Part shown: piece by piece, positions 7,139-49,046 of the stretch
Layout of the letters: every line of letters starts with the position of its first letter
How positions within the stretch are numbered: the stretch's first letter is position 1
From: Clostridiaceae bacterium
Lineage (GTDB): Bacteria > Bacillota > Clostridia > Tissierellales > Sporanaerobacteraceae
DNA: 64,000 nucleotides
Direction: 5' to 3'
Assembly: GCA_019391515.1 (NCBI GenBank)
Contig: JAHXQP010000025.1
Location: 186,001-250,000 of the forward strand
Translations under genes and position numbers: made by a program
Notes under the pieces: generated by a model
Seen by the model: the letters and a program-made list of their open reading frames with translations, nothing else
What the model was told of the DNA's origin: nothing
Database searches by the model: none

Positions 7139-7248
7139 AGGAATTTCACCTCTCCCCTTTTCTCGGTGGGAAGCAACAACGTATAGAAGTATCATTATCA
7201 CCATCTAGATTTTTGCAAAAAGTTTTGCCAATACTTTTTTGTAGCAAA

Positions 7249-18989: not shown

Positions 18990-19308
18990 GTCTAGGTAAT
19001 CGGGTAAGAGATAAATAATTAATTTATTTACCGACCTCCCACACCCCAGGTAAGAACAACAACCTTCATCCCATGTAACCGTCACATTTACTGTGTATAG
19101 TTCGGGTAGTATTGGACTTTGTTTTGTATCGTAAACTCGTCCACTCTAAATCAGCCTGATGTGATTTCTGTTCGTCGGTTCGGGATTTTGCTTCCAGTTT
19201 CCTTCAGATTCCACGTCGCCGTGGACACCCTTGCTCTTAGCTAACGGTTCCTACTACCAAGCCCGTAGTGGACTTTCACAACCAAGTTGTTGCCCATACT
19301 GGGCATAC
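18990..19308 (-). mobile_element. Truncated group II intron (5' domain I portion, no reverse transcriptase)
   Basis: Reading the minus strand from 19308, GTATGCCCAGTATGGGC resembles a group II 5' end. It is followed by GAAAGTCCACTACGGG and then conserved domain I blocks such as AAGGGTGTCCACGG, GTGGAATCTGAAGGAA, GACGAACAGAAATCACAT and ACAAAACAAAGTCC. No reverse-transcriptase frame or domain V follows, so only the 5' part remains. The right-hand limit is exact to a few bases; the left limit is approximate. It is a different intron type from the intact one at 40340-42850. The interval 18921-18990 holds nothing else that I recognise. Confidence 0.65.
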
Positions 19309-26684: not shown

Positions 26685-28426
26685 TATTTGCCACCACATA
26701 CATTACAAGAAGTATTTTTAAAATCATTACCTTTTATTATAGAAATTTTATCTTTTTGATTATTATAGTTATCTGATAAAACAAATCCTGCTTTTTTAAA
26801 ATAATAATCATCACCTTTTTCTGAAACTATTATATTTTCTTCTATCCTTCCTTCAGTAAAGGTTTTAAGTAGATCAATAAATAATATGCTACTTTGAATA
26901 GATATTAGAGAGCCATAAGGTATAAATGTGCCACTACAACCAGATACATTTTTAGTAACATTTTGTCCTGGCCTACAGTATGAAGTAGAATCATATAACC
27001 CTAATACCTCATCTCGTTTAAAAATACATTCATAGCAACCTGCTTTATCAAATTGGATTACTGCTACATGAGAACCTATATCTAGTGTCTCATTCCAAAT
27101 ATAAAATACAGGAGTATTAATTTTATTAGTATTTATATAGTCATTTATCCACATATTTAAAATCGCATTTCCTGTTGCTGCAATTACATAATCATAATCA
27201 TTAAAATCTATACCACTATCATCAATTGCATCCTGTATTTTTTCAGCAACAGTTTTAATTTGTAAACCAGGTAAACTTTTCTCTCCAAATTTTCTAAGTG
27301 CTTCTACTTTATAAACCCCAATATAATCTCTTCCGAGTAAATGTCTATAAATGTTTTCTGACCCTAATTTATCATGATCTATCAATGTAATATTTTTACA
27401 TCCTGATTTTATCAAGTTATTAAACACATATCCACCTATTGAGCCACATCCTATTACAAGATACTCTTTATTAGATAAAATATTTTCGTCAAAAGAAGTT
27501 CTATTTAAAAGACTACGTTCATCCAGCCTTTCTACATATAACGGAATTATTTCCGTCTTTTCTATTAGTTCAAGAGTAGAATCCATATTAAAACATGGAG
27601 TTTTTATAACAACGCCAAAAGTATTAGAAATACCATTTGGTTGTTTGACTTCAAATATAATAAACAATTCTTCTTTAGCTTTTCTTATAATTTTTCTTAC
27701 ATCTGATGTAACTTTTACACCTTCAAAAATTACATTCAAATATTCTACAGATATTGGTTTGTCTATTTCAGGTGGATAAATAATATCCTTAGCTTCACTA
27801 TATAAATACAATCCATTTTTAATTGAATTGTTGTACCCCCATTCCTTAAAATCATTTGTATCTATACTTGCAAAATAATCATTTACTTCAGTTCTTTTTA
27901 GATATTGTGAATAGGATTCATTCTTTCTTCTTTGTTTTTTTATTTCCTTTATCGAACAATAAGATATTTTTTTACTTGATTCTAAATTTGGTATAATTAC
28001 TTTAGCTATTTTCCATCCTGGTAAGCATAATATATAAGAATCAAATTCTTCTAAAAAGTCATTCCAATTTTCCTTACTTATCCCTTCTTCAATTATCAAT
28101 TTTGCCCGCAAAATACATTGATTTAGGATCCCCAGCAAATCCTTCTCTATGATAGAACCCTCTAAATCATATAAGCAAAGCTTACCTTTATTATCAATAT
28201 GAGGAATATATGGTATTTCTGCCAATGCAATATAAATATCAACAAGATTCTGTCCCCAATCATTAGGAATTCCTATTATTATTGGAAACCACGAACTGCC
28301 TACCTTTAACTCACATTTAATCTTCACATCATAGCTTTGATTTTTATAACTCTCATTATTCTTTATCTTAATGCCTGATAAATAAGGTTTATCCAATAAA
28401 TCATTTTTTATTAAATTCAAATCCAT
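26684..28426 (-). CDS. cap2: CBASS Cap2-like E2-E1 fusion (ThiF family)
   Basis: 580 residues. The N-terminal E2-like domain has a candidate catalytic Cys84 in KGKLCLYDLEG. A linker and a C-terminal E1/ThiF adenylation domain follow, with VIGCGSIGGYVFNNLI (nucleotide loop), LIDHDKLGSENIYRHL, and later cysteines in GCYECIFKRDE and NVSGCSGTFIPYGS that may hold the E1 Cys and zinc sites. Cap2 activates the CD-NTase C-terminus and links it to target proteins, priming its activity. It ends with CNVCGGK. It starts 5 nt past the CD-NTase stop. Confidence 0.9.
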   Translation of the reverse strand: MDLNLIKNDLLDKPYLSGIKIKNNESYKNQSYDVKIKCELKVGSSWFPIIIGIPNDWGQNLVDIYIALAEIPYIPHIDNKGKLCLYDLEGSIIEKDLLGILNQCILRAKLIIEEGISKENWNDFLEEFDSYILCLPGWKIAKVIIPNLESSKKISYCSIKEIKKQRRKNESYSQYLKRTEVNDYFASIDTNDFKEWGYNNSIKNGLYLYSEAKDIIYPPEIDKPISVEYLNVIFEGVKVTSDVRKIIRKAKEELFIIFEVKQPNGISNTFGVVIKTPCFNMDSTLELIEKTEIIPLYVERLDERSLLNRTSFDENILSNKEYLVIGCGSIGGYVFNNLIKSGCKNITLIDHDKLGSENIYRHLLGRDYIGVYKVEALRKFGEKSLPGLQIKTVAEKIQDAIDDSGIDFNDYDYVIAATGNAILNMWINDYINTNKINTPVFYIWNETLDIGSHVAVIQFDKAGCYECIFKRDEVLGLYDSTSYCRPGQNVTKNVSGCSGTFIPYGSLISIQSSILFIDLLKTFTEGRIEENIIVSEKGDDYYFKKAGFVLSDNYNNQKDKISIIKGNDFKNTSCNVCGGK

Positions 28427-28431
28427 ACAAA

Positions 28432-29457
28432 TTACTCCATTCCAGAAGAACTAGAACTTGGTATATAATTATATTGTTTCTTTGCTGTCTTTTCTTCTTC
28501 TGGAACCTCAAAATCGTCTCCAAATATCTTTTGGAGTTTTTTGTACTTTTCATGTTCATCAGTTTCATTCTCTACACCATTTAAATCAGATTGTAGCTTT
28601 TCTGCCTTTTCTTTAAAATCAGTCATTTGTCTATCACTCATCTTTTCAAAAACATCTGAATTTAATTCAAAGTCAAGTTCTATTGGTAGTGGTGATTTTA
28701 TTCTATATAAAAAGTCTCCATCTTTGTCAATTCCTTCAAATCTAAAGCTATTAACAATAGAATCTACTATATGAATTAAAGCACTTAAATCATCTTCTTC
28801 ATAGTATATAAAATTATCCAAAGCAATTAAATTAAGTCCAATACTTGATGGTTCAGAGTGTCCTTTTGCATCAAATCTTCTATGTTTCCATCTTTTAAGA
28901 TACCTTAACATCCTCCTAAATTGATCTCTTTGTTTCCCCATTTCCACTCCATTATTTATATGCTCTACCAACCCCTTGGGATCAGCCTTGTCCCATTTCT
29001 GAGAATCTTTATTGCCTTTAATTCCCTTTGCAATATAAATCTGACTATCAGTATTATCTTTATCTTCATAAACATAAACTACTAGATCTACATGATAGGA
29101 AGGTTCTCCATCTTTTTTATAAGTTACTGTCACACAGGGCTTCTTTATTTCTGCACCATATTCTGTATGATTTTTCAAAAGTTTTTCTATATCTTCCTTT
29201 AAATCCATAGGATCATACTCAGATTTATTAACATTAAATCTCAAACCTACGTCAATATCATATTCCCTACCATCTCCTGGCTTTATTCCTGTATACATAG
29301 CATAACTTCCTTGGTCTAATTTCTTAAACGATGGTAAGTCCTTATCATTTTCCAAAATCCTCAATAAAGTATCCCTTTTCTCCGCAAGTTCCGAATTGGT
29401 TCCATAATCAAGTCTTATCTTTTCATTAAATTTTTTGAACTCTGATTGAATACTCAT
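28432..29457 (-). CDS. CBASS CD-NTase (cGAS/DncV-like nucleotidyltransferase)
   Basis: 341 residues. The active site is GS (residues 50-51 in LDQGSYAMYTGI), DID (Asp67 and Asp69 in REYDIDVGLRF) and the third acidic residue Asp124 in SYHVDLVVYV. The helical region RRMLRYLKRWKHRRF also occurs in DncV-like enzymes. On phage infection it would make a cyclic oligonucleotide for the effector; the product cannot be read from sequence. The C-terminus is a flexible SSSSSGME tail, the expected Cap2 substrate. AAGGAGGAAGATT precedes the ATG. It lies 48 nt after hsdR with no terminator between. Confidence 0.9.
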   Translation of the reverse strand: MSIQSEFKKFNEKIRLDYGTNSELAEKRDTLLRILENDKDLPSFKKLDQGSYAMYTGIKPGDGREYDIDVGLRFNVNKSEYDPMDLKEDIEKLLKNHTEYGAEIKKPCVTVTYKKDGEPSYHVDLVVYVYEDKDNTDSQIYIAKGIKGNKDSQKWDKADPKGLVEHINNGVEMGKQRDQFRRMLRYLKRWKHRRFDAKGHSEPSSIGLNLIALDNFIYYEEDDLSALIHIVDSIVNSFRFEGIDKDGDFLYRIKSPLPIELDFELNSDVFEKMSDRQMTDFKEKAEKLQSDLNGVENETDEHEKYKKLQKIFGDDFEVPEEEKTAKKQYNYIPSSSSSGME

Positions 29458-29505: not shown

Positions 29506-32500
29506 TTACTCATCTTCTCTCGCATTAATATTTGTTTCTGCTACTCTTAAATTAATACTTTGTATATTATCTTTTGTGGGATATTTAATTAGTTTATTTA
29601 ATTTACTCTCTTTATCAAAAGATAATATATTGCTATCGTCGATTACATTTTTCTTGAAATTCTCTGCTTGTTCCATCACCTTTTCAAATATCTCTTCATC
29701 CCATTCTGGAGGGTAACCATGTTTATATAATAAAACAGTCAAATCCATATTGAGTTGATTTTTTATATCATCTCGACTAGCCCAGTCTGCATATTGAGAT
29801 TTATCATCTACCAATTCTTTAATAGCTTTAGCTAGGATTAGACACTTACTATCTTCATAAACAAAATCATTATCATCTCTGACCTTTATCAAGATGTCGT
29901 AGAATGCTTTTTCCTCATAGCTAATACCCATCTTTTCAAAAGATATTTTATCTTCTTGAAGAGCTTTTAATATCTCTAACAATTCATCTGATAAACTATT
30001 AATAAAATCATAAACAACTTCACTAACAAAAACTTGGGAATCACGATTGTTATAGGATTCAACCACTCTTTTTAGCCTTTCGGAAAATTCTATAGCTTTA
30101 ACCTTATTATTTTCTCCATATTTACTTATTGCCCTTCGTAGTAGTTTTAATAAAGCATTAAATTTTGATATAGGCATATCTATCTCATCAACTTGTTTTT
30201 GAAACTCTTCACCAAATAGCTCATCAGTACCTTTATTAACTATATCTTCAACACCTGTAGATGTTATAGCATCATATACCATCTTTTCAACAACCCTATT
30301 CATAACTTCAGCATCAGGAGCATTTCCCTTTGTTTGCTTATAAATTATTGAACGAATTGCCAAATAAAATTGTGCTTGATTTGTTTCCTTATCTGTAAGC
30401 TGTCCCGAAGGATACGATATTTCGTAGGCAGCTTTCATCTTCCTAGATAAATCCATAAACTTCATCTCTGTCTCTTTTGAAGTTTGTATGAACTCAGAAC
30501 CCAAGTTTAAGCATAATAGTCGTTCCGTGGGATTACCATTGAAAAACTTTGATGAATCAAATTGAATAAACATATCCTCTATTAAAGATAAATGATTTCT
30601 AAAGATACTTAAAGAAATACTTAATTCATCGATAGGACTTTCTTGTGGACTTCCATATTGTTTTGCCGCCTTCAGCATTTCTTCCTTTATTCCAATATAA
30701 TCCACAACAAGACCTGTTTCCTTGCCCTCAAATACTCTGTTGACCCTTGATATTGTTTGAATTAAAGTATGTTTCTGTAAAGGCTTGTCTATATACATAA
30801 CGGCAAGAGAAGCTACATCAAAGCCAGTAATCCACATATCCACTACTATGGCAATTTTAAAATTGGAATCATTGTTTTTAAATTGTTCATCTAACATTTG
30901 ACGGTGACTTTTATTGCCACATAAATCAAATAATTCTTGTGGATCATTATTCCCTTGAGTTGCAACTAAATTTACTTTGCTAAGCTCTTTTAGTTTTTCA
31001 AGTTGGGTATCATCTAAGTCCTCTCTTTCAGTCTTTTTTGCATCAAACCATTCTGGTTTAATATCTTCTAACTTTTTATAAACTAAAAAAGCTAGAGTTC
31101 TATTAGCACATACAATCATTGCCTTCTGCACAATGTTTGGTTTTTCACTACAGAGTCTTGTGTAATGTTCTACAATATCATAGGCTAATTTACTTATTCT
31201 ATCAGGATGTCCAAGTATTTTGCTCAACTTACTCATAGCACGTTTACTTGTTTCTACTTGTTCTGGATTGGAGCCTTCCTTAATAACCTCTTCATAGTAT
31301 TTATCTATTTCCCTTACCTGCTCTTCAGATACTATAACTCTAGCCAATCTAGGCTCATACTGGATTCTTACTGTAATTCCATCGTCACTACTTTCTTTCA
31401 TAGTATAACTATCAACTATTTCACCAAAAACATGAATAGTTTCATCTATTGGTGTTCCAGTAAATCCAACATAAGTTGCATTAGGAAAACTATCCCTTAA
31501 ATATTTAGCAAAACCATAGGTAGTTTCCACACCTTTTTCAGTGTATTTTAGTTTTGAGCCAATATTGGTCTGTGACCTATGAGCTTCATCTGAAATACAA
31601 ATAATATTATTTCTTTCAGAAAGTAAGCCTGTAGTCTCACAAAATTTTTGGATAGTGGTTATATAAATTCCACCACTTTGATTGTTAGCAAGTTCATCAT
31701 TCAAAGCTTGTCTATCTGGAATGGACATTACTTTTTTATCCTTTAGAAATTGTTTTGAGTCCTCAAATAACTTACTAGTCTGCTTATTTAAGTCATCTCT
31801 ATCTACAATAACAATAATAGTGGGAGCATCAAAAACATCCCTATAATGAGTAGCCAGCATTCTCGATAAAAAAAGCATTGCATAAGTTTTCCCACTTCCT
31901 GTTGCTCCGAAGTATGTACCACCCTTACCATCACCCTTTGGTTTTAGATGTGCTTTTATGTTTTCTAGCATTTTATTAGCAGCAAAATATTGTGGGTATC
32001 TGGTAACAATAGCCAACTCCTTACTTTCATCGTCAGGATAATAAATAAAATCTCGTAATATACTTATTAAGCTCCCTTTACTAAAAGCTCCCTTTATCAT
32101 GGTAAGCAGGGCAGAAATACCATTTGAAACCTTCTCATCTTCATTTGCTTTATTCCATGAGTAATAGTATTCATATGGAGTGAAAATACTACCCATTTTT
32201 GTATTAGCACCATCTGATAAAACAGATAGGAAACAATATTTGGTTAAGTTAGGAATATCCCTATTATAACGCATATGAATTTGTTCCCATGCATCATAAA
32301 TAGTAGTATCTTCTTTGATAGCTGTCTTAAATTCAAAAATTACCACGGGAATTCCATTAATGAAGATTATCATATCTGGTCTACGGTCTCTCGTTCCAGA
32401 AATAGTAATTTGGTTTATAACCTTAAAGATATTGTTAGTTGGAGCTTCAAAATCAATAAAGTCAATGTGTAAGGGCATTTCATTGTTATTGTCCCGGCTT

Positions 32501-32772
32501 AAATCAAAACCTTCATTTATTAAAAAGAATGCCTGCCTGTTAGAAGAATAAAGAGGATATGTGGAAATGTGCTTAATCTTATTAATTGCCTTTTCCAACT
32601 CTGTCTCTGTCAACCCAGGATATTTTGAGTATAAAAAGCTAGATAAATCCTCTTCAAGTATGATTTCATCGTATTTCCGATGTAACTCCTCGCCTTCTTG
32701 ATGAATATAGTCCTGCTTAGTGAATAAATCGATTATTGCAAATTCAAGTTGCTCTTCATTAAACTGTTTCAC
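29506..32772 (-). CDS. hsdR: Type I restriction enzyme R subunit
   Basis: About 1088 residues from GTG 32772, chosen because GAGGAGG lies just upstream; it overlaps the hsdS end by 14 nt. The N-terminal PD-(D/E)XK nuclease core is PDMIIFINGIPVVIFEFKTA. The SF2 motor has ATGSGKTYAML (Walker A), ISDEAHRSQ and GFTGTPIDE, plus DMWITGFDVASL and QTISRVNRVF. It translocates DNA from unmodified sites and cuts it. It is intact and clearly different from the interrupted hsdR at 1-1206. It is transcribed after hsdM and hsdS. Confidence 0.95.
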   Translation of the reverse strand: MKQFNEEQLEFAIIDLFTKQDYIHQEGEELHRKYDEIILEEDLSSFLYSKYPGLTETELEKAINKIKHISTYPLYSSNRQAFFLINEGFDLSRDNNNEMPLHIDFIDFEAPTNNIFKVINQITISGTRDRRPDMIIFINGIPVVIFEFKTAIKEDTTIYDAWEQIHMRYNRDIPNLTKYCFLSVLSDGANTKMGSIFTPYEYYYSWNKANEDEKVSNGISALLTMIKGAFSKGSLISILRDFIYYPDDESKELAIVTRYPQYFAANKMLENIKAHLKPKGDGKGGTYFGATGSGKTYAMLFLSRMLATHYRDVFDAPTIIVIVDRDDLNKQTSKLFEDSKQFLKDKKVMSIPDRQALNDELANNQSGGIYITTIQKFCETTGLLSERNNIICISDEAHRSQTNIGSKLKYTEKGVETTYGFAKYLRDSFPNATYVGFTGTPIDETIHVFGEIVDSYTMKESSDDGITVRIQYEPRLARVIVSEEQVREIDKYYEEVIKEGSNPEQVETSKRAMSKLSKILGHPDRISKLAYDIVEHYTRLCSEKPNIVQKAMIVCANRTLAFLVYKKLEDIKPEWFDAKKTEREDLDDTQLEKLKELSKVNLVATQGNNDPQELFDLCGNKSHRQMLDEQFKNNDSNFKIAIVVDMWITGFDVASLAVMYIDKPLQKHTLIQTISRVNRVFEGKETGLVVDYIGIKEEMLKAAKQYGSPQESPIDELSISLSIFRNHLSLIEDMFIQFDSSKFFNGNPTERLLCLNLGSEFIQTSKETEMKFMDLSRKMKAAYEISYPSGQLTDKETNQAQFYLAIRSIIYKQTKGNAPDAEVMNRVVEKMVYDAITSTGVEDIVNKGTDELFGEEFQKQVDEIDMPISKFNALLKLLRRAISKYGENNKVKAIEFSERLKRVVESYNNRDSQVFVSEVVYDFINSLSDELLEILKALQEDKISFEKMGISYEEKAFYDILIKVRDDNDFVYEDSKCLILAKAIKELVDDKSQYADWASRDDIKNQLNMDLTVLLYKHGYPPEWDEEIFEKVMEQAENFKKNVIDDSNILSFDKESKLNKLIKYPTKDNIQSINLRVAETNINAREDE

Positions 32773-33895
32773 CTTTAACCACCTCCTCAAGTGAACCTTT
32801 TATTAAAACTGGGCAAATATCATTAATTTGTCCTTTTAACTGTTCATTAATTTCCATCCTTGTAATATAGGCATTATATATGTCCACAATGGAATTTTGA
32901 ACTTTAATATCTGGTATTGGAATTTCGACTTCTACTAAATCATCCCACATAAATGTTTCACGAGCTGACCCCCAAGAATGGAACCTCGTATAGCGGTCAA
33001 ACTCTGACCTTTCAAAAAACATAAATAGATATTCAGGATTTAATAATTCAGGTTTTGCTATATTAAAAACTATATATGAAGAAGAAACAATATAAGTGTC
33101 CTCAGTCCTGTTATAAGCCATTGTAATTCTATCACTATTTCTAGAAGTTACAGTTACATAAGCAAAAGATTCTGGCTTTACAACTTTATAGGAAGTTAGT
33201 GATACCCCACTTAAATTTGCTTTGGTTTCAATAAATTCCTTTTGTATTGAAAGGCCTTTAACATTACTAATATCATACAATTCTTTGTTATTCCTACCAT
33301 CTAAAGGCTGTATATAATCTTTTATTTTTTTACTAGGCATTTCTCCTCTAAGTTTTTCTATCGTTGTATCGCATACCAGTTTTAAATCTTCTAAGCCTTT
33401 CTCATAAACTTCTTGATTTTTCAACATTGATTTATATACAGCAACATATTTTTTTTGAATTTCAATTGAAGGTACTATTATTTCTATTCCACAAAACACT
33501 TCCCAATCTAAGTTTGCTCTTATGCTTCCATCACTTAAAAATGCACCATATCTATCTTTCTCTGAAGATTTAAAAATCATAAATAAATATTCTGGTAGGA
33601 TTTTTTTCTTATCTACTTCAAAGGTAGTATAGGCTGGCGAAACCAAAACATCAGATTCTCTCTCATATAGCCCAATTCTTATGCATTGATCTCTTCCTGT
33701 TTGCATACCACTGAAGATGAATCTACCATTTGTCATTATCTTATATTTTTTTTTGTCAACATTAGAGGTATTTGCTACTGTTGGCATAAATTCCTTATTT
33801 TTATTGATGCCATAAATAGGTAAATTGTAATCTTCAGTATTGGTATAATTACATAATTTTATAAATTCTCCTATTTTTAACCGACTATATTTCAT
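32759..33895 (-). CDS. hsdS: Type I restriction-modification specificity subunit
   Basis: About 378 residues from ATG 33895, overlapping the hsdM end by 11 nt. Two target-recognition domains have similar ends: a first half ending near IEIIVPSIEIQKKYVAVYKSM and a second ending EVEIPIPDIKVQNSIVDIYN. Each is followed by a helical spacer, the usual HsdS half-site design. It sets the bipartite DNA target for HsdM and HsdR; the target itself cannot be deduced. Confidence 0.92.
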   Translation of the reverse strand: MKYSRLKIGEFIKLCNYTNTEDYNLPIYGINKNKEFMPTVANTSNVDKKKYKIMTNGRFIFSGMQTGRDQCIRIGLYERESDVLVSPAYTTFEVDKKKILPEYLFMIFKSSEKDRYGAFLSDGSIRANLDWEVFCGIEIIVPSIEIQKKYVAVYKSMLKNQEVYEKGLEDLKLVCDTTIEKLRGEMPSKKIKDYIQPLDGRNNKELYDISNVKGLSIQKEFIETKANLSGVSLTSYKVVKPESFAYVTVTSRNSDRITMAYNRTEDTYIVSSSYIVFNIAKPELLNPEYLFMFFERSEFDRYTRFHSWGSARETFMWDDLVEVEIPIPDIKVQNSIVDIYNAYITRMEINEQLKGQINDICPVLIKGSLEEVVKGETV

Positions 33896-35477
33896 ATCCA
33901 ATCCCCCTAAAAGCATCTTCTAGGCTTTTTTGTGATTCTTTTTCAAGTTTCATTATATATTTCATTTCGGTTTGAATACGCACCATTTCTTTTTCATAAT
34001 CAATATCCAAATCCCTATCTATAAACTCTACATACTTACTTGGGGCAAGAGAATAGTTAGCCTCCCTGATTTCCTTTAAACTTGCAGATTTGCAAAGTTC
34101 AGGAATATCATCATATCCTTGACTTGTTTGCCATGAAAAATAAAGGTTCTTTATTCTATCTATTTGTTCATCTGTTAAAACCGTTTTTCTTTTCTTGCTT
34201 CTTTTGGAAATATCATATTCTGCAATATTTTCATCCCAGGTACGTAAATCTACAAATAATATTTCATTTGTCCTGTCTTTGACTTGCCTATTATTCAATG
34301 TTCTTGCTTTTTTATTATTATTTATAATCCATAGGGTCACTGATATATCTGTTGTATAAAACATATCTCTCGGCAAAACAATAATTGCTTCTATTTTATC
34401 ATTTTCTATAAGTTTTTTTCTGATTTCATATTCTACTCCATCAGAATTTAAAGCTCCGTTAGCAAGCAAAAATCCAGCTACACCATTTGTTACATCTAAT
34501 TTTGATAACATATGAAGTATCCAAGCATAGTTAGCATTTGATTTTGGTGGTGTTTCATAGCCATGCCAGCGTGGATCGGTTAATAGTTCATTATCCCCTC
34601 GCCAATCCTTTAAATTAAATGGTGGATTAGCCATTATATAGTCAACTTTTCTATTTAAATGTTGATCGTCTGTAAAAGTTGAGCTTTCACCAACTGCCTT
34701 TTCTCCTAAGTCATAAGCAATTCCACGTATAGCTAGATTCATTTTTGCTAATCGCCTGGTATCTGGATTTTTCTCCTGCCCCACTATAGAAACCTTTAAT
34801 TTATTACCATGATGTCTTTCCACAAACTTCATAGATTGAACAAACATACCTCCAGAGCCACAACAGGGGTCGTAAACTGATCCACTATATGGTTCTATTA
34901 ACTCCGCAATCAATTCAACAAGACAAGCTGGTGTGTAGAACTCACCCTCTTCTTTAGTGCTTGCTACAGCATAGCTTTGTAGGAAATATTCATATACTCT
35001 TCCAATTAAATCTTCCTCTTGAAATCTCTCTTCATTTATTTTATTAATCTCATCTATTAAGTTTTTAAGTGTTCTAATATCCGCCCCTAAACTACTATAA
35101 AAATTAGAGAGCAATGCTCCCTGTAATGGAGGATTGTCCTTTTCAATATCAGCCATTGCTGTATCTAACTTTACAGCAATATCGTTACTATTAGCCTCTT
35201 TTACAATATATGACCACCTACAATGTTCTTGTAAATAAAAAACATTCTTAGCTAAATAAAAAGATTTCTTTTCTAGAAAAGCAGGTATATCACCATATTC
35301 TTCCTTAAGTTCTTTACGTCTTTTTTCAAATTTATCTCCAGCAAATTTTATGAATACAAGACCTATAACAGCATCTCTGTTTTTTTCTGTTCCTCCAGCA
35401 CCTCTTAGTGCATTTCTACAATTAAATAATATTGATTCTAAAGTTTGTCCATTCTCTTGCTTATTATTTTTAGACAT
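33885..35477 (-). CDS. hsdM: Type I restriction-modification DNA methyltransferase subunit
   Basis: 530 residues. The N-terminal HsdM helical domain begins ESILFNCRNALRGAGG. The methylase domain contains GEFYTPACLVELIAEL, the SAM-binding VYDPCCGSGGMFVQ and the N6-adenine catalytic motif IMANPPFNLKDW. It protects element and host DNA from HsdR. It is the first enzyme gene after the XRE regulator (26-nt gap). No frameshift is seen. Confidence 0.95.
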   Translation of the reverse strand: MSKNNKQENGQTLESILFNCRNALRGAGGTEKNRDAVIGLVFIKFAGDKFEKRRKELKEEYGDIPAFLEKKSFYLAKNVFYLQEHCRWSYIVKEANSNDIAVKLDTAMADIEKDNPPLQGALLSNFYSSLGADIRTLKNLIDEINKINEERFQEEDLIGRVYEYFLQSYAVASTKEEGEFYTPACLVELIAELIEPYSGSVYDPCCGSGGMFVQSMKFVERHHGNKLKVSIVGQEKNPDTRRLAKMNLAIRGIAYDLGEKAVGESSTFTDDQHLNRKVDYIMANPPFNLKDWRGDNELLTDPRWHGYETPPKSNANYAWILHMLSKLDVTNGVAGFLLANGALNSDGVEYEIRKKLIENDKIEAIIVLPRDMFYTTDISVTLWIINNNKKARTLNNRQVKDRTNEILFVDLRTWDENIAEYDISKRSKKRKTVLTDEQIDRIKNLYFSWQTSQGYDDIPELCKSASLKEIREANYSLAPSKYVEFIDRDLDIDYEKEMVRIQTEMKYIMKLEKESQKSLEDAFRGIGYEI

Positions 35478-38053: not shown

Positions 38054-40339
38054 TTATCTTGCACCCTTATCCTTTTCCTTGTCTATATCTTCCTGAGATA
38101 GACTAAGTTCCTCCCTAATCTTCGTCTTATACTTTTCAAGTTTTCCAAGTGTAGACTCCTTATCATCTTTTTTAAGACCATCTACATCATAGGTAGATTC
38201 AAAATAGTTACTACTCCTAAAATCACTGTCATACCTATCTGGAATACCATCATTATCCATATCCTTTTCAAGGGGATCATAATAATTTCCATCATCATCT
38301 ATTTCAAGTCCTAATTTTTCTCTTAAATCATTTTCATCAACCCTTACATAGTCATCAAATTCCCCATATTTAAGGTCTAAAAGAAAGCCTTCAAGGGCTT
38401 GCTCCTTATTTACTGCCTCGCCATCTTCATCTTCAAGATAAGACCTATTGGATACTTCCTTATTATCTACATATTGTGTCCAGGAATAATCTTTAAGGCT
38501 TATTTCATACTGTATTTCATGGTTGCCATCTTCAGTGGTTGTATAGGCAAGCCCAATATGTCCTTCATCTGGGAAAAGTGTATTAAAGTCTTCATAAGCA
38601 TGATCCTCTCCAAATTCTTTATTTAAATAATCAACTATAGCTCTTTTAACATCTTCAATCAGTGGACTTAAGTTTTCCAATTCCTCTACTTCACCCATAT
38701 CTAGGAGTTTATTGATTTCAGCTAGTCTTGCTACCTTGTTTTTTAGTTCTTCTGCCTTATCAAAAGGTTTCTTTACTTCTTCTTTGGCAATTTCAAATTG
38801 TTCTTTAGTAGCTACAAGCCTTTCCTCAAACCTTTTTAGACTATCTGGAATTTTATCTATTACATTGTCCATTCTTGTAATGTTTCCATCTCTGTTTTGC
38901 CCCAAGTCCCCGTAATGATTATTAGAACCCTTTAGGTTAAAGTTATGTTCATTGGTAATAATGCTATAGGTTACTTCTATAGGAAATCCCCTATATTCTC
39001 CAATAACCTTCTTATCTCTAAGCTTTATTCCCTTAATAGCTTCTAGGATTTTATCTCCTGCAACTTTTCTATCCTTTATTTCTTCATCAGTAATTTTAAT
39101 TGAAGTAAATTTATTATCTCCTGTACCCTGTGGCTCAGTTCTTTCAATATCCTTCTTTGCTCCCTCAATTAATTTTTCATATTTCTCAATTTCTCTAGGA
39201 TAGGTCTTTATAATCTTATCTTCAAGACTATAGAGGTTACTCTTGTAATTCCCTTCCATCATCTTTAATTTTGTAACTTCAATATCCAGGTCCATCTTTT
39301 CTTTTATAAGGGGATTACCTGTTGCTAAAGCCTTTATTTCGGCATATGATAGGGTATTCTCGTCAACATCTTCTGCCACTCTAGCAGGAGTTTTTGATGT
39401 CATAATCTGAGATATAAATTTTTGCTTATTTTCTATGGTCTGCCAGAGGTAGCTATCAAATGTGTTTTCCGTAACATACCTAAAAATTTTTACCTTATCA
39501 TTTCTATTACCACGTCTTACTATTCGACCCGCCCTTTGCTCCAAGTCAGCAGGCCTCCAAGGTACATCAAGATCATGAGTTGCTATAAGTCTTTCTTGCA
39601 CATTAGTACCTGTCCCCATCTTTTGAGTAGAACCTAAAAGAATTCTAACATTACCTTTTCGTACTTTTGAAAATAATTCATCTTTCTGTTTTTCTGTATT
39701 GGCATCATGGATAAAGGCTATCTCTTTTTCAGGAACTGCCATATCTAAAAGTTTTTCCTTTATATCATCATAAACATTAAAAGTTCCATCATTTTTTGGG
39801 GTAGACATATCAGAAAAGATAAGTTGTGCTGAACGTTCTCCCTTTGTTTTATCCCATATGGAATAAATATTTTTAACACATACATTAACCTTGCTATCTG
39901 GATCATCTGGTAATAAGGGATTGATAAGCCTTTGATCTAATGCTAGTTTCTTACCATCATTTGTGATTTTTAGCATATTATCCTCTTCTGGCTCAACCCT
40001 TCTATCTCTAACCCTATCTGCACGTTCAGAAATGCCTTTTAAGACCTCTTTCTGCTCCTGGGTAGGCATTGTTACTATTGTTTCGTATTCAGCTTCAGGA
40101 ACCTTTAAATCGAGCATATCTGCTGTTTTAATATCTGCAACTTCCTTAAACATAGCCATAAGTTCAGGAAGATTATAAAACTTGCTAAATCTTGTCTTAG
40201 TTCTATACTTATCTCCTTCAGGGGAAAGTTCTACTGCTGTTACAGTTTCACCAAATGTACTAGCCCATGAATCAAAGTGTTGTAAGTTATTCTTTTCAAG
40301 TTCATTAAATTGCAAATATCTTTGCATGGTGTAAAGTTC
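38054..40339 (-). CDS. Giant methylase/helicase, exon 2 (C-terminal 761 residues)
   Basis: This is the 3' exon of the gene that begins at 48064. It starts at codon GAA (40337-40339) with ELYTMQRYLQFNELEKNNL, continuing the helicase fold. Motifs include LLGSTQKMGTGTNVQERL and RAGRIVRRGNRNDKVKIFRY (SF2 helicase C-terminal arginine motif VI). Then come a long coiled coil (about 350-560 of this part) and an acidic tail. The frame upstream of 40339, to an ATG at 40447, is intron sequence and not protein. Joined to exon 1 the gene would be 7500 nt (2499 residues). Confidence 0.9.
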   Translation of the reverse strand, partial: ELYTMQRYLQFNELEKNNLQHFDSWASTFGETVTAVELSPEGDKYRTKTRFSKFYNLPELMAMFKEVADIKTADMLDLKVPEAEYETIVTMPTQEQKEVLKGISERADRVRDRRVEPEEDNMLKITNDGKKLALDQRLINPLLPDDPDSKVNVCVKNIYSIWDKTKGERSAQLIFSDMSTPKNDGTFNVYDDIKEKLLDMAVPEKEIAFIHDANTEKQKDELFSKVRKGNVRILLGSTQKMGTGTNVQERLIATHDLDVPWRPADLEQRAGRIVRRGNRNDKVKIFRYVTENTFDSYLWQTIENKQKFISQIMTSKTPARVAEDVDENTLSYAEIKALATGNPLIKEKMDLDIEVTKLKMMEGNYKSNLYSLEDKIIKTYPREIEKYEKLIEGAKKDIERTEPQGTGDNKFTSIKITDEEIKDRKVAGDKILEAIKGIKLRDKKVIGEYRGFPIEVTYSIITNEHNFNLKGSNNHYGDLGQNRDGNITRMDNVIDKIPDSLKRFEERLVATKEQFEIAKEEVKKPFDKAEELKNKVARLAEINKLLDMGEVEELENLSPLIEDVKRAIVDYLNKEFGEDHAYEDFNTLFPDEGHIGLAYTTTEDGNHEIQYEISLKDYSWTQYVDNKEVSNRSYLEDEDGEAVNKEQALEGFLLDLKYGEFDDYVRVDENDLREKLGLEIDDDGNYYDPLEKDMDNDGIPDRYDSDFRSSNYFESTYDVDGLKKDDKESTLGKLEKYKTKIREELSLSQEDIDKEKDKGAR

Positions 40340-40401
40340 ATAAGGTAGGCAACACCACGCCATACTAATTTTCATCAGCGGTCTTGGTGTAACCCCCTTC
40401 A

Positions 40402-40435
40402 GAACCGTGCTTACGCCTCTCAGCGTACACGGCTC
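40402..40435 (-). ncRNA. Group II intron domain V
   Basis: The 34-nt hairpin has GAGCCGTGTACG opposite CGTAAGCACGGTTC, with the conserved catalytic AGC near the 5' side. It is the most diagnostic RNA element of the ribozyme and appears undamaged. Confidence 0.9.
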
Positions 40436-40450
40436 GCCATTTTTCATAGT

Positions 40451-42259
40451 TTAAGTGATTTTTTTCTTTACTTCTTCATAACATTTTGGGCATAAAGCCA
40501 AAGATTTCCGTCTTTTTTCAATCATCAACAATTCAAATTTATTATCAGCATTTAAGTCTTTCATACGTTTTACATGGTGCATATATACTTTGATAGAGTT
40601 TGCTCCACAAGCTTCACAAACACCACTTTTAAGCCTACCAGCAAGACTGTTAGGTCTTATTTGGACTCTGTATTGTGGCATTATATCGGCAAATTGTGGG
40701 GCATCACTTTTATCCCTTTTAAATCCATCATTATAAAACTCACAGCGTTTTATTCCACTTTTTGTCTTATAATTAGCACCAAAGTCTGCATTTTTACTGC
40801 GATATTTTGTATACATTTTCATAACAGATGAGTTGTATTTAGCAGCCAATGTTTTTAGACAACTTCCACGCATAATAGAATGAAATTTACCTAAGTTGCA
40901 AGCATTGATTGCCATGCGATAATAATTGTATAGTCCTCTGATTTCTGAATTATATTTACTGATGATTGCAACTTCATCCAAGGGCATTAATGCACCCCTA
41001 TGAATTGGTTTCCAGATTTCTTTACCATTTCCGTCTTTTTTGATTTTCAAAGCCTTGTATTCGTGCAACTTAGAAATCCATTTTTCTTTAGGTACATATA
41101 GTTGTACCTTCCCATACCATACACGTTGTAATCCTTTCTTGGTGCGTTTAAAATCTTGACTCCTAGATACTCTAATATCGTAACCTAGATATCGCACCAT
41201 TTTAGAGGAGTGGGTAATATGAGTCTTTTCTTCTGACATCGTAAGCTTGAGGGTATCTTGTAAAAACACTCTTACTAACTCTTTTATTTTTTGTGCGTCT
41301 TCTTTTGAACCTGTTATGGAAATTAAAAAATCATCAGCATAACGGTTGTATTGTATACGCTTAAAACTATTATCCATTTCATCTAAATGTGGAGTAGACA
41401 ACATAGTTTTTCGAGCTTCTTTAAATGTCTTTATATTTTCCTCATTACGATTATTTTCTAAGTTTTTCTTTGATTTTCTATAAGCCCAACGGACTTTCTC
41501 ATGGTCTTCGTGTACCTTGCGCTTTCTTGTTTCTCCCATATCGAATTCATTTTTCAGCTCTTCCATAAATATATCAAGCTCATGTAAATATATATTTGAT
41601 ATTATCGGACTCATGCCCGACCCTTGTGGAGAGCCAGAGTATGTCGTATGGTATATCCATTGCTCCATATATCCTGCTCTTAGAAATTTCCACATTAGAG
41701 ATATAAATGCCTCATCATCAATGCGTCTTCTTAGAAGATTTACGGTTACATGGTGGTCAAAACTATCGAAACAAGCCTTAATATCACCCTCAATTATCCA
41801 TTTAGCACCAGTAAAAATTGTAACAACCTCTCTTAATGCCGTATGACAACTTCGGTTAGGTCTAAAACCATGTGAGTTATTAGAAAACGTTGGTTCATAG
41901 ATTGCTTCTAATATCATTCTGATGACTTCTTGTATTAGCTTGTCATCAGTTGACGGAATACCCAAAGGTCGTTTTTTCTTGCTATTTTTCTTTGCAATGT
42001 AGACACGCCTTGCTGGGTTTGGTTGGTATGAGTGGTCTTTTAATCTTGCAATAATATTTTCAATACGCTCCATGCTCATACCATCAAGAGTAAGTCCATC
42101 TGACCCTGCTGTCATACTACCCTGTGAGATAGCAATATTTTGATATGCAAGTAGATAGAATTCTGGATTATATAGGTTGCGATATAACCTTTCAAACCTA
42201 TAGTTTTCTTTTGTTGCTTGTTCACTTAAACTTTTCAATACATTTTCGGGACTTCTCAT
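40451..42259 (-). CDS. ltrA: Group II intron reverse transcriptase/maturase with HNH-like domain
   Basis: 602 residues. Reverse-transcriptase motifs in order: RPLGIPSTDDKLIQEVIR, EPTFSNNSHGFRPNRSCHTA, WIIEGDIKACFDSFDH, SGSPQGSGMSPIISNIYL and RYADDFLI (the catalytic YADD). The maturase X region follows (SRSQDFKRTKKGLQ and beyond). The C-terminus CEACGANSIKVYMHHVKR with LCPKCYEEV is an HNH-type endonuclease with two zinc-binding Cys pairs. It helps splicing and retrohoming. It is encoded in domain IV. All catalytic motifs are present. Confidence 0.95.
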   Translation of the reverse strand: MRSPENVLKSLSEQATKENYRFERLYRNLYNPEFYLLAYQNIAISQGSMTAGSDGLTLDGMSMERIENIIARLKDHSYQPNPARRVYIAKKNSKKKRPLGIPSTDDKLIQEVIRMILEAIYEPTFSNNSHGFRPNRSCHTALREVVTIFTGAKWIIEGDIKACFDSFDHHVTVNLLRRRIDDEAFISLMWKFLRAGYMEQWIYHTTYSGSPQGSGMSPIISNIYLHELDIFMEELKNEFDMGETRKRKVHEDHEKVRWAYRKSKKNLENNRNEENIKTFKEARKTMLSTPHLDEMDNSFKRIQYNRYADDFLISITGSKEDAQKIKELVRVFLQDTLKLTMSEEKTHITHSSKMVRYLGYDIRVSRSQDFKRTKKGLQRVWYGKVQLYVPKEKWISKLHEYKALKIKKDGNGKEIWKPIHRGALMPLDEVAIISKYNSEIRGLYNYYRMAINACNLGKFHSIMRGSCLKTLAAKYNSSVMKMYTKYRSKNADFGANYKTKSGIKRCEFYNDGFKRDKSDAPQFADIMPQYRVQIRPNSLAGRLKSGVCEACGANSIKVYMHHVKRMKDLNADNKFELLMIEKRRKSLALCPKCYEEVKKKIT

Positions 42260-42850
42260 AATGCCTCACGCACCTTTCCTTTTTTATTGTATTGAAGAAA
42301 AACTGTCTCCCTTCGCCATGTGGACGGCTTTCCCGTCCTCGGACTACTACGAAGACTCTGTTACCCTAACAAATATTCAAAGTCGCTTTTTTTCATAGCA
42401 CTTATAGCCAATTTATTGGCATTTTGTCTTAGGTAATCCCCTTTTAGAACTGTAATAACATAAGCTTGTTATGATTTCGGATGTGACTTTCGTCGTTTTC
42501 CACTTCTTGTGGCTAGTTTAATTTGGATATCTTGTGAATACGCATGACTGACTCATATTCACCAAAATACATGGGAGTTTAACTTCCATACCCATGGAGC
42601 AACATTTTGCCCAACCTCCGACTATCATTTAGGCAGTTTAGCTTTCATCCTTATTCATAACTTTTCATCACTACCACGCAAACGCCTTGGAAGTTTCGGT
42701 ATTTCGTGTCCTCCGACATGCTGCACTCCCCGTCAGGTTTCCCATTTCGGATAAGTCGGGTGATGATAGGTTGTAGACTTTACATCTACTTTGATATCTT
42801 TACCTATTACTTGCTCAAGGTAAAATTATTACAGCCCCTTATGGGCGCAC

Positions 42851-45800
42851 CGTCATACTATTGGATATTGGGGTTCCTGTAGCAAATACAACTCCTCTAC
42901 CTCCAGTCATTTCATCTAAATATCTGCATTTCATAAACATATCAGAGGATTTAAGTGCTTCACTCTGTCCTATTCCTGCTACATTTCTCATCTTTGTATA
43001 AAGAAATAGGTTCTTATAATTATGGGCTTCATCTACATAAAGCTTATCAACACCAAGTTCTTCAAAGGTTACCACATCATCTTTTTTGAAGTCATCATTT
43101 AATTTCTTAAGTCTTCCCTCAAGTTTCTTTTTAGTATTTTGTAACTGCTTTACTGTGAAGTTCTGACTTCTATCGTACTTATACTCTTCAATATAATTTA
43201 GGATTCCATCTATTTCACTTCTTATATGATTCTCTTGATATTCTTTACTCATTGGTATTTTTTCAAATTGTGAATGGCCAATAATAATCGCATCATATTC
43301 CCCTGTAGCTATTTTACCTATGAACCTCTTTCTATTATTAGGTTGAAAATCTTTCTTTGTAGCAACCATAATATTAGCTCCAGGATAAAGTTCCATGAAA
43401 TCTCTACCTATTTGCTCAGTTAAGTGATTGGGAACTACAAACAAGGCTTTACTACTCATTCCAAGTCTTTTTGATTCCATTGCTGAGGCAATCATCTCAA
43501 AGGTCTTACCTGCCCCTACTGAATGGGCAAGAAGGGAGTTGCCACCATAAAGCGTCCTGGCAACTGCATTTTTTTGATGGTCTTTAAGGATAATACCTGT
43601 ATTCATTCCTTCAAAATGAAGATTAGAACCATCATATTCCCTATTGCGTACAGAATTAAATTTTTCATTGTATATTTTTTCTAAACGGTGTCTTCTGTCT
43701 GGCTCATTAAATATCCAGTTTTTAAACTCTTCTTTTAAAAGTTCCTGTTTCTGACTTGCTAACATTGTTTCTTTTTTATTAAGTATAGAGGATGTACTAC
43801 CATCTGGATTAGTAACCCTATCCCACACCTTAGTTTCCTTAAGATTTAAAGCATCCTCTATGATTTTATAGGCATTCACTCTACTAGTACCATAGGTCAT
43901 ATTTGCTAGGTCATTTCCTCCATCTTTACTTTTTCCTTCAATCCTCCATTCAGCAGTAAAGGGTGAATACCTAACATTAATATCCCATCTTGCAAATCTT
44001 GGTGTCTTAAGGGTTGCAAAAATAAATTCTTCAACATCCTTAGCCGGTACCCAGGTAGCCCCAAGTCTTACTGTAATTTCTGACGCTGTAAGTTCCTTTG
44101 GCATTACCTCTTTAAGGCTTTCTCTTTGCACTTTTAAATTTAGTAAATTGCTTTCTACTTCTCTAAGATTTGTGCCATCATTTTCATCTATAAAACGTAG
44201 TGATCTTTCAATTGTTTCAATATATTCATCTAAAACACCTATCTTTTCCCTAATGTTTCCACTTAAATATTCATCAACACTCACATAGTTAAATGCCATA
44301 GGATTATGCTTTTCTTTTTCTGTAAAGGGTAGGGCATTATTTTCTCTATCAAACTCCTTAATATCAAGAAAGATTTTTCCCTTTAGGCTATCTACCAAGG
44401 TTTTTTCATCAATATCTGTAAGCTCTTCCATATAGTCAAGGTCTACTCTTCCTTTTTCTGCTATAGAAAGAATAAGTGCTTCATCTGGTGTATCAACATG
44501 GCTTACAGGAATAGCCTTTTTAATTGTACGTTTTGTAAATATGTCGCCCTTTTCCTTAAACTTTCCTTCTTCTAACTTTTCAATACTTGAAATAAGGGCA
44601 AAGTTACTGTCTTCAGATAAAAGCCTAGTATTCATCCTTCCATTAATATAACCATGGTCTTTACTAAAGGCATCGTAAATCTTATTTAGATGTTCCTGAG
44701 TTTCCTTAATTTCTCCTTCACTTCTATCTTCCAATTGTGAATCAATTACATCTCTAAGGACATTTCCAAGAGCAATATAGTCTCTGATTTTATCAAGGTC
44801 ATTATCGTTTCTATTAACCTCCCTCATTATGGAATCTTCTCTCATATAAATCTTTCCATCTTTTTCAGTAAAGGAGAAATTCTTCACATTATCATCAGCT
44901 GGAATAATTTCAGGTTCTCTATCCCCATCTTCTCTTTCTATCTTTATAGGCTCTATTTTTCCTTTAATATTCTTAATGGATTCAAAGAGTTCAACCTTTA
45001 AGTCATGATTGTCTTTTGCCTTACAAGTTATGGTATTACCAAATCTTCCTGATACCTCTACCATTTCACCTAGTATCATTTCAGGATTTTCTACAAAGTA
45101 ACTATTGTAGCTAAGACCACTTTTATCAGTTTTTAGCTCATACCAAGGTTCTTCTTTTTCTATTACTGAATCCTTCTTTTGAAGGAAGATAATATCACTG
45201 GTTACTTCTGTTCCTGCCATACCTTTAAAGGTATTATTGGGTAGCCTTATTGCTCCCAGAAAATCACATCTAGCACCTATATATCTACGAATAGAATCAT
45301 CTTTTTTATCCATTGTTCCACTTGAAGTAATAAAGGCAATAACACCACCACTTCTAACCTTGTCTATGGATTTTGCAAAGAAGTAATCATGTATTAAAAA
45401 ATTATTTTTATCATATAGTCTATCGTTTACCTTAAATTCTCCGAAAGGAACATTTCCAACTGCCACATCAAAAAAGTTATTAGAAAATGAAGTTTCCTCA
45501 AAGCCTTTTACCTGGACCTTGTTTTCTGGATATAATTTCTTTGATATATTTCCTGATATACTATCAAGCTCTACACCATATACCTTTGATTCTTTCATAC
45601 TTTTAGGAAGGCTACCCATAAAGCTACCAACTCCACATGAAGGCTCAAGTATGTTCCCCTTTTCAAACCCCATGTTTTCAAGTCCTTGATAAATCCCATC
45701 TATTACTACTTTAGGAGTATAGAAGGCTGTAAGAGTTGATTCCTCACAAGCTTCATATTCACTTGGGCTTAGGTTTTCTTTAAGAAAGTTCCTTGCTCTT

Positions 45801-48064
45801 TCCCATTGACCAGTTTTATTTTCATCAAATACTTCTGATAAGCCTCCCCAGCCTACATACCTAGCTAAGATTTCTTGTTCCTCCCTACTAGCCCCCCTAT
45901 CCTCTTCTTCTAGCATTTTAAGAATTCTTATAGCATTGATATTGTTTTCTAACCTTTCTTGTGGTGGAAGGCTTTCAGCTAGTATTTCATCAGTGATTAT
46001 AAAATTTTCAGCCCTTGGTCTTTCTATGATTTCTTCTTGCCTATCCTCACCATCTTCAAAGTTATCAAGAGAAAAGGTCATTTGTTCCACTTCTCTGGAT
46101 TTTTCTTCATCAAAATCATAAAGCTCTGCATTATAAAGAAATTCATTCAATTCATCTATATCTTCAAATTGTAGTCTTCTAACCTGTCTTGCATCAAGAA
46201 TATACTCATCTTTAAGTTCATAGGGAAGGATTTCAATAGATAGGAGTTCCTCTTTTATACTTTTAACAATAAAGGGATTATCCCACACTTTTATAACACT
46301 ATCTCTTGTAATAGGCCTTTCATTTAATTCTTCTCCTTGCATGAAAAGAATTTCTGGATCTATTTCATCTTCAATTTCAACCTCTATGGGACTATCAAGC
46401 TGCCCAAAAAACACCCTGTGAATTTCTTCTTCACTTAACTGTTTTTTAAGTTCACTATCTTTTAATTCCTTAAATGTCTTAGGAAAATCTTCAAGTATAA
46501 GTCTTTCTGCTCCGACTTCCCTAAGCTCCTTAATATTAAAGTAACCCCATTCTGGCTCTATACCTATTACAAGACCAAAGGCATCTTCTGTTTCAGGGTC
46601 ATACTCTGTTAAATACCAGGTCCAGTTACTTCTAAAGGGAATGATATAGGCTGCATGGACTGTTTTATCCCCTGCAGAAACCTTTTCTGTTTCTCCTAAT
46701 CTAGGAACTTGTTCTAAAATTTCATCACTCATAAGTTCCTTAGGATTAACCTTTGAATAATATTGGGAAACAAAAAAGGAAGTAGATTCATTGTCTACCT
46801 CCTGGTCCCCATCTTTACTTATTTCTTCATCTAATTGTAAACGTACTCCTTCATTGCTAGTTCTCTCAGCTGATGATTTAGATTCTCCATCAACCCTACC
46901 CACTTCATCTGGTCCTCTGCCTTTAGTTTCTCTGTCAGTCCAAAGCTCTCCATCATCCTCGGTTTCTCCATCTCTATAAATTTCCTGGCTGTCTCTTCTA
47001 CCTCTAGCAAGTGATTCATTAGGCTCTTGTCTAGGAACATCTCCTGAAATAATTCCTCCTTCTCCTCTGCTATGAAGTTCAGTCTGGCCTTGGCGAACCT
47101 GTGGGTCTGGTAGGTCTGATCTTTCATCAGAACTTCTTCCGATACTTCCTTCATCTTCAAGATTATCTCTTCCTGTGTTTCGCATTGTCCAAACATCATC
47201 TGATATTCGTTCTCTATCTTCTCTTCCTTCTGGTATGTTTCCAGCATTTCCTCGAAATTCATCATCCATCCCTCCTATATTTTCTTCATTACCTCTATCT
47301 TCTATATTTTCATTGTACCGCTCTACTGGCCTTTTTGTCAGCACCTTATTTTTATCAATTTCTTTATCTATAGTAACTGTTCTCTCGAGGATACTTGCAA
47401 CCATTGAATTTAGCTCATTTCCTACTATTGATAAGGAAATTTCATCAAGACTTCTTAGAATATTATTAATTTTACCTCTATCTACCTCATAATTTATATC
47501 AAGTCTACTAGCATAGCCTATTTTTATAGACTCTGTAAGAAAATCATTAAATATCTTCCTACTACTAGGAGCTACCTTAAGTTCATTTAAGACATAATTA
47601 CCCCTATTTATTACTTCTGTATATGCAATATTTTCAAGGATTTCATCTATTGTCATATCAGCTATTTCATCTTCATTAAAAGCACCATCAAACCCTAAAG
47701 CTTCTTTTAGGCTTTCTTCTCCATTATTTAGTTTCCATAACTCAACTTGATTTGTTGCTCTTGACATTGATACTGTTTGGCTAAGGTCAAAGATGTAGGT
47801 TACTTTACCATATTCTCCATAATTCTTATATATAGGAATTCCTTTTTCTCCACGTTTTACAGTTCTATTAAATTTCTTTCTCCAAAAATCAAATTCCCCA
47901 CAGGCTCTTGCACTAGCATTCTTATCATAGATACTAAGTTGGCTAGTAAAATCATATTTATAATTATTTCCAATAGTTCTCATAAGTGAAATATACTCAT
48001 CGCTACTAGAGAGAACCCTTGACTTGATTTCTTGTATTAAATGCTCAAAATCATTTATCCTCAT
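42851..48064 (-). CDS. Giant methylase/helicase, exon 1 (N-terminal 1738 residues)
   Basis: The N-terminal domain ([38 protein letters not shown], then GIPIYKNYG) resembles the LtrC/ArdC-like region of ICE proteins. A low-complexity acidic/arginine-rich stretch lies at about 265-420. An N6-methyltransferase domain follows, with [22 protein letters not shown] and a NVPF motif in place of NPPY. A SNF2-type helicase comes next: [15 protein letters not shown] (Walker A), DEAHNYKNL (Walker B) and [13 protein letters not shown], where the intron interrupts. Unspliced, translation would stop three codons into the intron. These giant proteins are typical of Tn1549-like elements and probably process or protect transferred DNA. 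Confidence 0.92.
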
Positions 48065-49046
48065 ATTTTCCTCCTTCTTCCATAATAAAATATAAGCTAC
48101 AATTATGAATCTCCTTTATTATTTCTTCTAAAACATCAACCACTATGCTATTACCAGCTTGTTTATACAGAATACTCGACATACAGTTTTTCCTTCTTGG
48201 AAATATCTTTATAAGCTTATCAAAGTCACTATCATCAAATCCCATTAACCTAAAACATTCTCTTTCAGTAAGATACCTATATCTGTTACCACCTATGGCA
48301 AGTATTCCTGAATTAGGTACTCTTACTTGTTTAGTGGATATGGTATAACAAAAGTCTTCTATTACTTGAAGCCTTCCTTGAAATTGTGGCTTATAGGATG
48401 GATCATGGAGTATTTTTAACATTGAAGGCTGTTTAACTAAAAATATATCTCCATACCTTTCCATTACATCATTTTCAAGAAAATCTGATAAATGCTTGGC
48501 TCTTTTGTGTTTTAAATTATTAAATTTAAAAGGATTTTTACCTAAATAACTAATGGCAAAAATCCTTTCCCTCTTTTGTGGTATTCCAAAATTCATCGAA
48601 TTAAGAATCTCATACTTGGTTTCATAACCCAGTCTTTTCATTTCTTTAAGGTAATAAAAAAAGGAAGTTCTCATATTTTTATCGAGAACTCCCTTAACAT
48701 TTTCCCATATTACCAATCTGGGCTTATCCTGTTTTTCTTCTATTATCCTTATAGTTTCAAATAGAAGACTGCTCCTTGTCCCACTTCCTTTCTTTCCTCC
48801 AAGTTTTTCCCCTATCCTGGAAAAATCCTGACAGGGACTACCATGCATTAACAAATCAATTTTTTTATCTGGAAGGCTATAATTACATACACTTCTTGGC
48901 TCATAATTTTCATTAAAAAGTGCATTATAGCTTTTAACACAATTCTTATCTATTTCAACATAATCTACAATCTCAAAGGGAATTTTACTATTGATGTAAG
49001 CCTTCCTTATTGCACCTATACCACCAAAAAGCTCTACAACCTTCAT
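48051..49046 (-). CDS. DNA (cytosine-5) methyltransferase
   Basis: 331 residues with C5-methyltransferase motifs: [13 protein letters not shown] (motif I), [11 protein letters not shown] (motif IV with the catalytic Cys), ENVKG (motif VI), IPQKRERIF (motif VIII) and near the end [10 protein letters not shown] and [13 protein letters not shown] (motifs IX-X). No restriction partner lies next to it, so it may be an orphan methylase protecting the element from host restriction. It overlaps exon 1 of the helicase gene by 14 nt and follows topB by 2 nt, in one operon. Confidence 0.94.

Follow-up and report, generated by a model that had tools for sequence, protein, structure and literature searches.

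A probably active group IIA intron in the methylase-helicase gene of a Tn1549-like conjugative element

The locus examined here raises a simple question: is a helicase gene of an integrative and conjugative element (ICE) destroyed by a reverse transcriptase-bearing insert, or is the insert an intron whose removal gives the gene back? The window, by which we mean the whole 64,000-nucleotide stretch of DNA that was analyzed, belongs to a Clostridiaceae bacterium, and a sequence-only reading of it had proposed an intact group II intron within a helicase motif. We asked what the insert is, which gene it occupies, how it recognizes its target, and how it may have spread.

Results

An intact group IIA intron with an LtrA-like protein

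The insert is a complete group IIA intron of the same kind as Ll.LtrB; its 2511 nt run from position 42850 down to 40340 on the minus strand. Its 5′ end, GTGCGCCC, lies at 42850 and its 3′ end, ...CCTACCTTAT, at 40340, and these termini (GTGCG...AT) are the 5′ GUGYG and 3′ AY ends of group II introns. Domains V and VI are matched by the Rfam model RF00029 at 40437-40340 of the minus strand, scoring 60.6 bits where the gathering threshold is 40. Domain V (GAGCCGUGUACGCUGAGAGGCGUAAGCACGGUUC, 40402..40435, minus strand), located by the Rfam match and covariation, shows the AGC triad and a GAGA loop in the arrangement GAGCCGU...GAGA...ACGGUUC, with pairs conserved over 17 relatives. In domain VI (40340..40400, minus strand), the covariation alignment places a bulged branch-point A at 40346, 7 nt from the 3′ end (column 97 of the alignment). 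No Rfam model matches domains I-IV of the intron at gathering score, so domains I-III rest on a covariation fold, in which 77 of the 108 predicted pairs show compensatory changes in an alignment of 18 introns; for domains V and VI, the corresponding figure is 18 of 32 predicted pairs in an alignment of 17. The λ-ε′ loop, CCTTGAGCAAG, contains an AGC that is invariant in the 18-intron alignment. This is a IIA feature, for which the published criterion is a loop of about 11 nt with AGC (PMC12350094). The compensatory pairs, together with empty-site homologs that are collinear at the junction, argue that the intron is not a product of chance.

The intron-encoded protein (IEP; 40451..42259, minus strand), recognized from its ORF and profile matches, is a 602-residue homolog of LtrA with a reverse transcriptase (YADD), maturase X, and HNH organization. 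Its ORF is uninterrupted and matches RVT_1, Intron_maturas2, and an AI2M-like HNH domain. Among solved structures, the closest is that of LtrA from Ll.LtrB (5g2x, E 2.3e-149), whereas the next structure, from another group II reverse transcriptase class, reaches only E 4.6e-37; the score against NCBIfam TIGR04416 is 272, below the cut-off of 300. The element is an intact, probably active mobile group IIA intron of the mitochondrial-like IEP class, a relative of Ll.LtrB. The sequence-only reading had named the 5′ end, domain V, and 3′ end of a group II intron with coordinates that proved exact to the base, and the folding that it had suggested, carried out for domains I-III, V, and VI, yielded the compensatory pairs given above.

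Removal of the intron would restore a probable anti-restriction protein

The 5′ exon (42851..48064, minus strand) has 1738 codons and, by its Eco57I and ResIII matches, encodes an adenine methylase-like N-terminal part followed by the first half of a SNF2-type helicase that terminates in ...GTPISNSMT. The 3′ exon (38054..40339, minus strand), with 761 codons and a stop, begins ELYTMQRYLQ and carries the helicase C-terminal domain (Helicase_C match). When joined, the exons form a 2499-residue frame in phase 0 with zero internal stops, whereas the unspliced frame reads V-R-P and then meets a TAA stop as the fourth intron codon. The earlier proposals that exact removal joins SNSMT to ELYTMQ in frame, that the insertion falls inside a conserved helicase motif (here GTP[IV]SNSM), and that naive annotation would yield two broken genes are all borne out.

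Among 398 sampled genomes of the phylum, 19 contain the gene; nearly all copies are uninterrupted across the junction, and none besides the window's own copy is split at the same codon. The best empty-site homolog (82% identity, 169/171 residues) is collinear across the junction, an alignment shows continuous junction residues in eleven of the homologs, and plasmid and phage relatives of the gene are likewise continuous at this point. The comparison with empty-site homologs, also suggested at the outset, therefore finds the helicase unbroken at this codon.

The interrupted gene had been described as a giant transfer gene, a label that its features do not support: they are those of a DarB-like polyvalent anti-restriction protein, in which a methylase is combined with an SNF2 helicase, and not of a relaxase. 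Phage homologs of the protein are annotated as DarB-like antirestriction and SNF2, and the combination that defines the DarB-like type, an adenine methylase fused to a SWI2/SNF2 ATPase in a Tn1549-like ICE, is found here; a VirD4 CD1115 family protein is encoded in the same ICE. A methylase and SNF2 pair has been described as the counter-restriction module of Tn1549-like ICEs (PMC5512222). On these sequence features, the host protein is a probable DarB-like polyvalent methylase-SNF2 anti-restriction protein.

Near-identical introns at one codon of divergent host genes

Querying GTDB genomes with only the IEP, irrespective of the host gene, returned 80 loci. Introns of the same clade occupy the same codon of the same gene at 13 further loci and are 77-100% identical among themselves. 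Eight of these 13 are 99.9-100% identical over about 2.5 kb and occur in eight genomes of unrelated gut bacteria, classified as Lachnospiraceae, Oscillospiraceae, Eubacteriaceae, or Clostridiaceae or left in unclassified bins, while their host genes, compared through codon alignments, share mostly 59-72% nucleotide identity (highest 87%), and their target sequences are all different. Near-identical introns in host genes that have diverged to this extent indicate that the intron moves between ICEs independently of the gene, and retrohoming of the clade into empty ICE copies is strongly implied by these comparisons. One clade member (L024) lies elsewhere, in a gene for a large serine recombinase (FRNIMN/EFYARD), a position that its sequence marks as an escape to a partly matching site. 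The window's own genome holds a single copy of the intron, with no local proliferation seen, and an exact-pattern scan of viral contigs found no occupied site. In the searchable literature, neither an intron at this site nor identical introns shared among these genera are reported; elements of this kind are already known, and the novelty lies in which gene is targeted and how broadly the intron has re-homed.

The intron has also traveled with its ICE. Positions 1192-64000 of the window, intron included, are ≈100% identical to contig NZ_KB892378.1 of Erysipelothrix tonsillarum DSM 14972, where the locus itself matches the window at 99.99% identity over 11.8 kb. That copy is embedded in a contig of 454 kb, and its genome measures 1.9 Mb compared with 2.84 Mb for the window's own. 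Such identity over 1192-64000 means that the intron-bearing ICE moved recently between different hosts. Divergence from E. tonsillarum begins to the left of base 1192, which is likely to be the ICE end, as read from this alignment. Since the 63-kb ICE is present in two hosts, transfer was evidently possible with the intron in place, which does not imply that splicing was needed for it.

Covariation defines how the intron reads its target

The EBS/IBS pairings were identified by covariation across relatives, using 46 distinct EBS/IBS combinations and, for comparison, permutations of introns and exons. EBS1 (AGTCAT, intron nt 302-307, 42544..42549) faces IBS1 (ATGACG, codons Met-Thr, 42851..42856), and EBS2 (ATGTTG, intron nt 246-251, 42600..42605) faces IBS2 (CAATAG, within the Ser-Asn-Ser codons, 42858..42863), all on the minus strand. 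Between EBS1 and the last six exon nucleotides, 5.13 of 6 positions are paired, compared with a permuted mean of 2.66 and a best of 3.30 in 2000 permutations, and offsets neighboring EBS1 give no covariation signal. For EBS2 against exon positions −13 to −8, the value is 4.00 of 6 compared with 2.46 when permuted. A placement of EBS2 in the loop at nt 261-275 was rejected, as covariation pointed to nt 246-251. In the window, both pairings reach 5 of 6, with the mismatch at −1 for EBS1 and at −8 for EBS2. Two relatives (L034 and L086) have the target ATGTGC (Met-Cys), and their EBS1 is altered to GCACAT, a perfect match. The δ nucleotide, assigned by analogy to IIA introns, is C at intron nt 301 (42550, minus strand) and is complementary to the G at +1 of the 3′ exon. 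Wherever a clade member's 3′ exon is available, TC precedes EBS1 and G stands at +1, and a δ-δ′ pairing of nt 301 with this G would be in keeping with other IIA introns.

Synonymous differences in the target are tolerated because a G of EBS2 faces the third-codon positions −13 and −10, where either C or U pairs, while position −7 lies in an unpaired spacer and −1 is usually unpaired or weakly paired. We infer that this tolerance of synonymous change is an adaptation. The near-identical 2506-nt intron in eight different target sequences constitutes a natural experiment in target tolerance. For anaerobic Firmicutes, the clade supplies LtrA-type introns that nature has already re-targeted and whose EBS/IBS can be read.

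Discussion

Probable splicing and homing, and competing explanations

We consider it very probable, on comparative grounds, that the intron splices, restores the helicase frame, and spreads by ICE conjugation together with retrohoming between divergent ICEs. After transcription, the intron RNA would fold with the aid of the LtrA-like maturase, EBS1 and EBS2 would pair with the 13 nt that close the 5′ exon, and lariat excision would restore the 2499-residue frame, a step to which anatomy and frame both point. The excised RNA-protein particle would then reverse-splice into empty copies of the codon in incoming ICEs, where the HNH domain, by the precedent of Ll.LtrB, would nick the other strand before the intron is copied in. 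The intron would thereby spread by two routes, being carried along when the ICE conjugates and retrohoming from one ICE to another, divergent one that shares the motif GTP[IV]SNSM/E. This account also explains the broken helicase genes that appear in automatic annotation of these ICEs.

That the insert is instead a retron-like or other reverse transcriptase gene that simply broke the helicase is a reading we give practically no credence. Weak retron/DRT matches appear in some libraries, and similar inserts are often annotated as "retron-type," but the anatomy refutes it, with domains V and VI, a maturase and HNH domain, exact junctions, and covarying EBS/IBS. A more serious alternative, and one we rate as unlikely, is that the helicase is dispensable and the intron a tolerated parasite in a gene perhaps already inactive. 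In three occupied relatives (L025, L028, and L034) the ORF of one exon is clearly shortened or broken, so the need for the host protein is not universal. Against this, the window's exons read through for 5.2 and 2.3 kb, neither exon frame is interrupted over the available sequence in most occupied relatives, and all clade members examined have intact splicing elements and an intact IEP. The sequence-only reading had held that the element depends on splicing for a probably needed protein; such dependence is likely, and the three damaged relatives limit it.

To the possibility that splicing is poor and the intron acts mainly as a brake we assign somewhat less than an even chance. Here, the lariat would re-open the spliced mRNA through EBS-IBS pairing and so keep the methylase-helicase, and with it counter-restriction or transfer, at a low level. 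Excised Ll.LtrB does re-target its spliced exons and damp the host-gene mRNA, an effect demonstrated for its relaxase gene that includes lower pRS01 conjugation (PMC6003770), and the EBS/IBS pairing that this requires is present in our intron. The target in the present case is not a relaxase, though, and such a brake is compatible with the spliced and homing intron that we favor rather than exclusive of it; by analogy, damping of the host-gene mRNA is a likely side effect. An earlier suggestion that transfer might be sensitive to temperature or magnesium found no support, and re-targeting of its own mRNA by the excised RNA, as in Ll.LtrB (PMC6003770), is the better founded idea.

Relation to known introns

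Several known systems resemble the element. The closest parallels are Ll.LtrB and Ef.PcfG, which lie in the conjugative relaxase genes ltrB and pcfG and share with it the IIA structure, an LtrA-type IEP, a GUGCGCCC start, and the choice of a conjugation element's core gene as host. A further likeness is that near-identical introns recur at a single conserved codon of diverged genes, with 99.7% identity for the intron compared with 61-72% for the exons (PMC5072309). Our intron differs from them in that its target is a methylase-SNF2 helicase, its EBS/IBS are different, and its identical copies extend over eight genomes assigned to several families. It thereby extends the story of Ll.LtrB and the relaxase to the anti-restriction helicase of gut ICEs. 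An intron in a phage DarB-like/SNF2 gene is similar in gene family, IIA class, LtrA-type IEP, phase 0 insertion, and an in-frame TAA as the fourth intron codon. Unlike ours, it occupies the codon equivalent to residue 1863 (DNMLKI/T) rather than 1738, it has a phage host, and its IEP is only 38% identical. A 2588-bp LtrA-like insertion reported in the vanB2 transposon Tn1549 of Swedish E. faecium (PMC4143159) is, as far as its description there goes, likewise an LtrA-like intron in a Tn1549-family ICE.

The nearest wider relatives, with IEPs about 50-60% identical, are LtrA-like introns that interrupt VirD4/T4CP genes on plasmids of E. faecium and in ICEs of Lachnospiraceae (L106, L107, and L058-L101). 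They too occupy ICE core genes but differ in their sites, at codons 149, 448, 463, and 474, with mostly one clade to each; recurrences at these codons are seen in L058-L075, L100, L101, L106, and L107, and Sporofaciens musculi carries several copies of such introns. Overall, 53 of the 67 relatives with exon sequence (the close clade included) sit in homologs of genes of this ICE, comprising 32 in the VirD4-like coupling protein, 19 in the methylase-helicase, and one each in a relaxase and a serine recombinase; the T4CP assignment of L048 (site about 249) was left out for its poor local match. The IEP tree assigns a separate clade to almost every site. T4CP448, T4CP463, and T4CP149 each fall on one side of a branch, and the helicase-1738 clade has support of 100/100 with one escape.

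Most identified sites are in phase 0, and the fourth intron codon in the exon frame is TAA in most clade members. This possible excess of phase 0, accompanied by a stop 3-9 codons into the intron when the exon frame is continued and shared by the distant phage intron, was noticed post hoc and serves as a lead only; an in-frame UAA at the intron edge possibly keeps ribosomes off the ribozyme. We offer tentatively, as a proposal that is more doubtful than not, that the IIA clade is a specialist of Tn1549-like ICE core genes, with subclades mostly devoted to one methylase-helicase or T4CP codon, a reading of the protein motif by the window's subclade that tolerates wobble at third-codon positions, in the manner of homing endonucleases, and a UAA that could block ribosomes. 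The window's site is within the top 6% of conserved positions in the helicase region. A preference of the clade for conserved protein positions is unsupported over eight helicase and T4CP sites (Fisher p 0.14), and a 2009 survey found group II introns to be without preference for conserved sites (PMC2814812).

Other features of the ICE

The ICE that carries the intron has further genes for defense and resistance. A complete type I restriction-modification system (29506-35477, minus strand) and a separate cytosine methylase (48051-49046, minus strand), the latter just upstream of the interrupted gene, share the ICE with the probable anti-restriction protein. CBASS-like genes at 26178-29457 (minus strand) encode a JAB peptidase, an E1-E2 fusion, and an oligonucleotide cyclase; they are followed by a 280-residue ORF (25358-26200) that has no NCBIfam match and may be the CBASS effector. 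A tetracycline-resistance ribosomal protection protein (11556-13511, minus strand) scores above the general family cut-off and far below the Tet(M) and Tet(Q) cut-offs.

The window also holds a second, incomplete group II intron at 19055-19225 (minus strand; RF02001, group-II-D1D4-3, 137.9 bits), an orphan piece from the 5′ side with neither an IEP nor a domain V adjoining it. This fragment lies between a lantibiotic-protection ABC operon and a 1207-residue P-loop ORF (19379-23002, minus strand), the first third of which matches the defense protein Tmn (PADLOC, E 1.1e-72). A pemK RNA motif (RF02913, 52.2 bits in Rfam) occurs at 7135-7198 of the minus strand.
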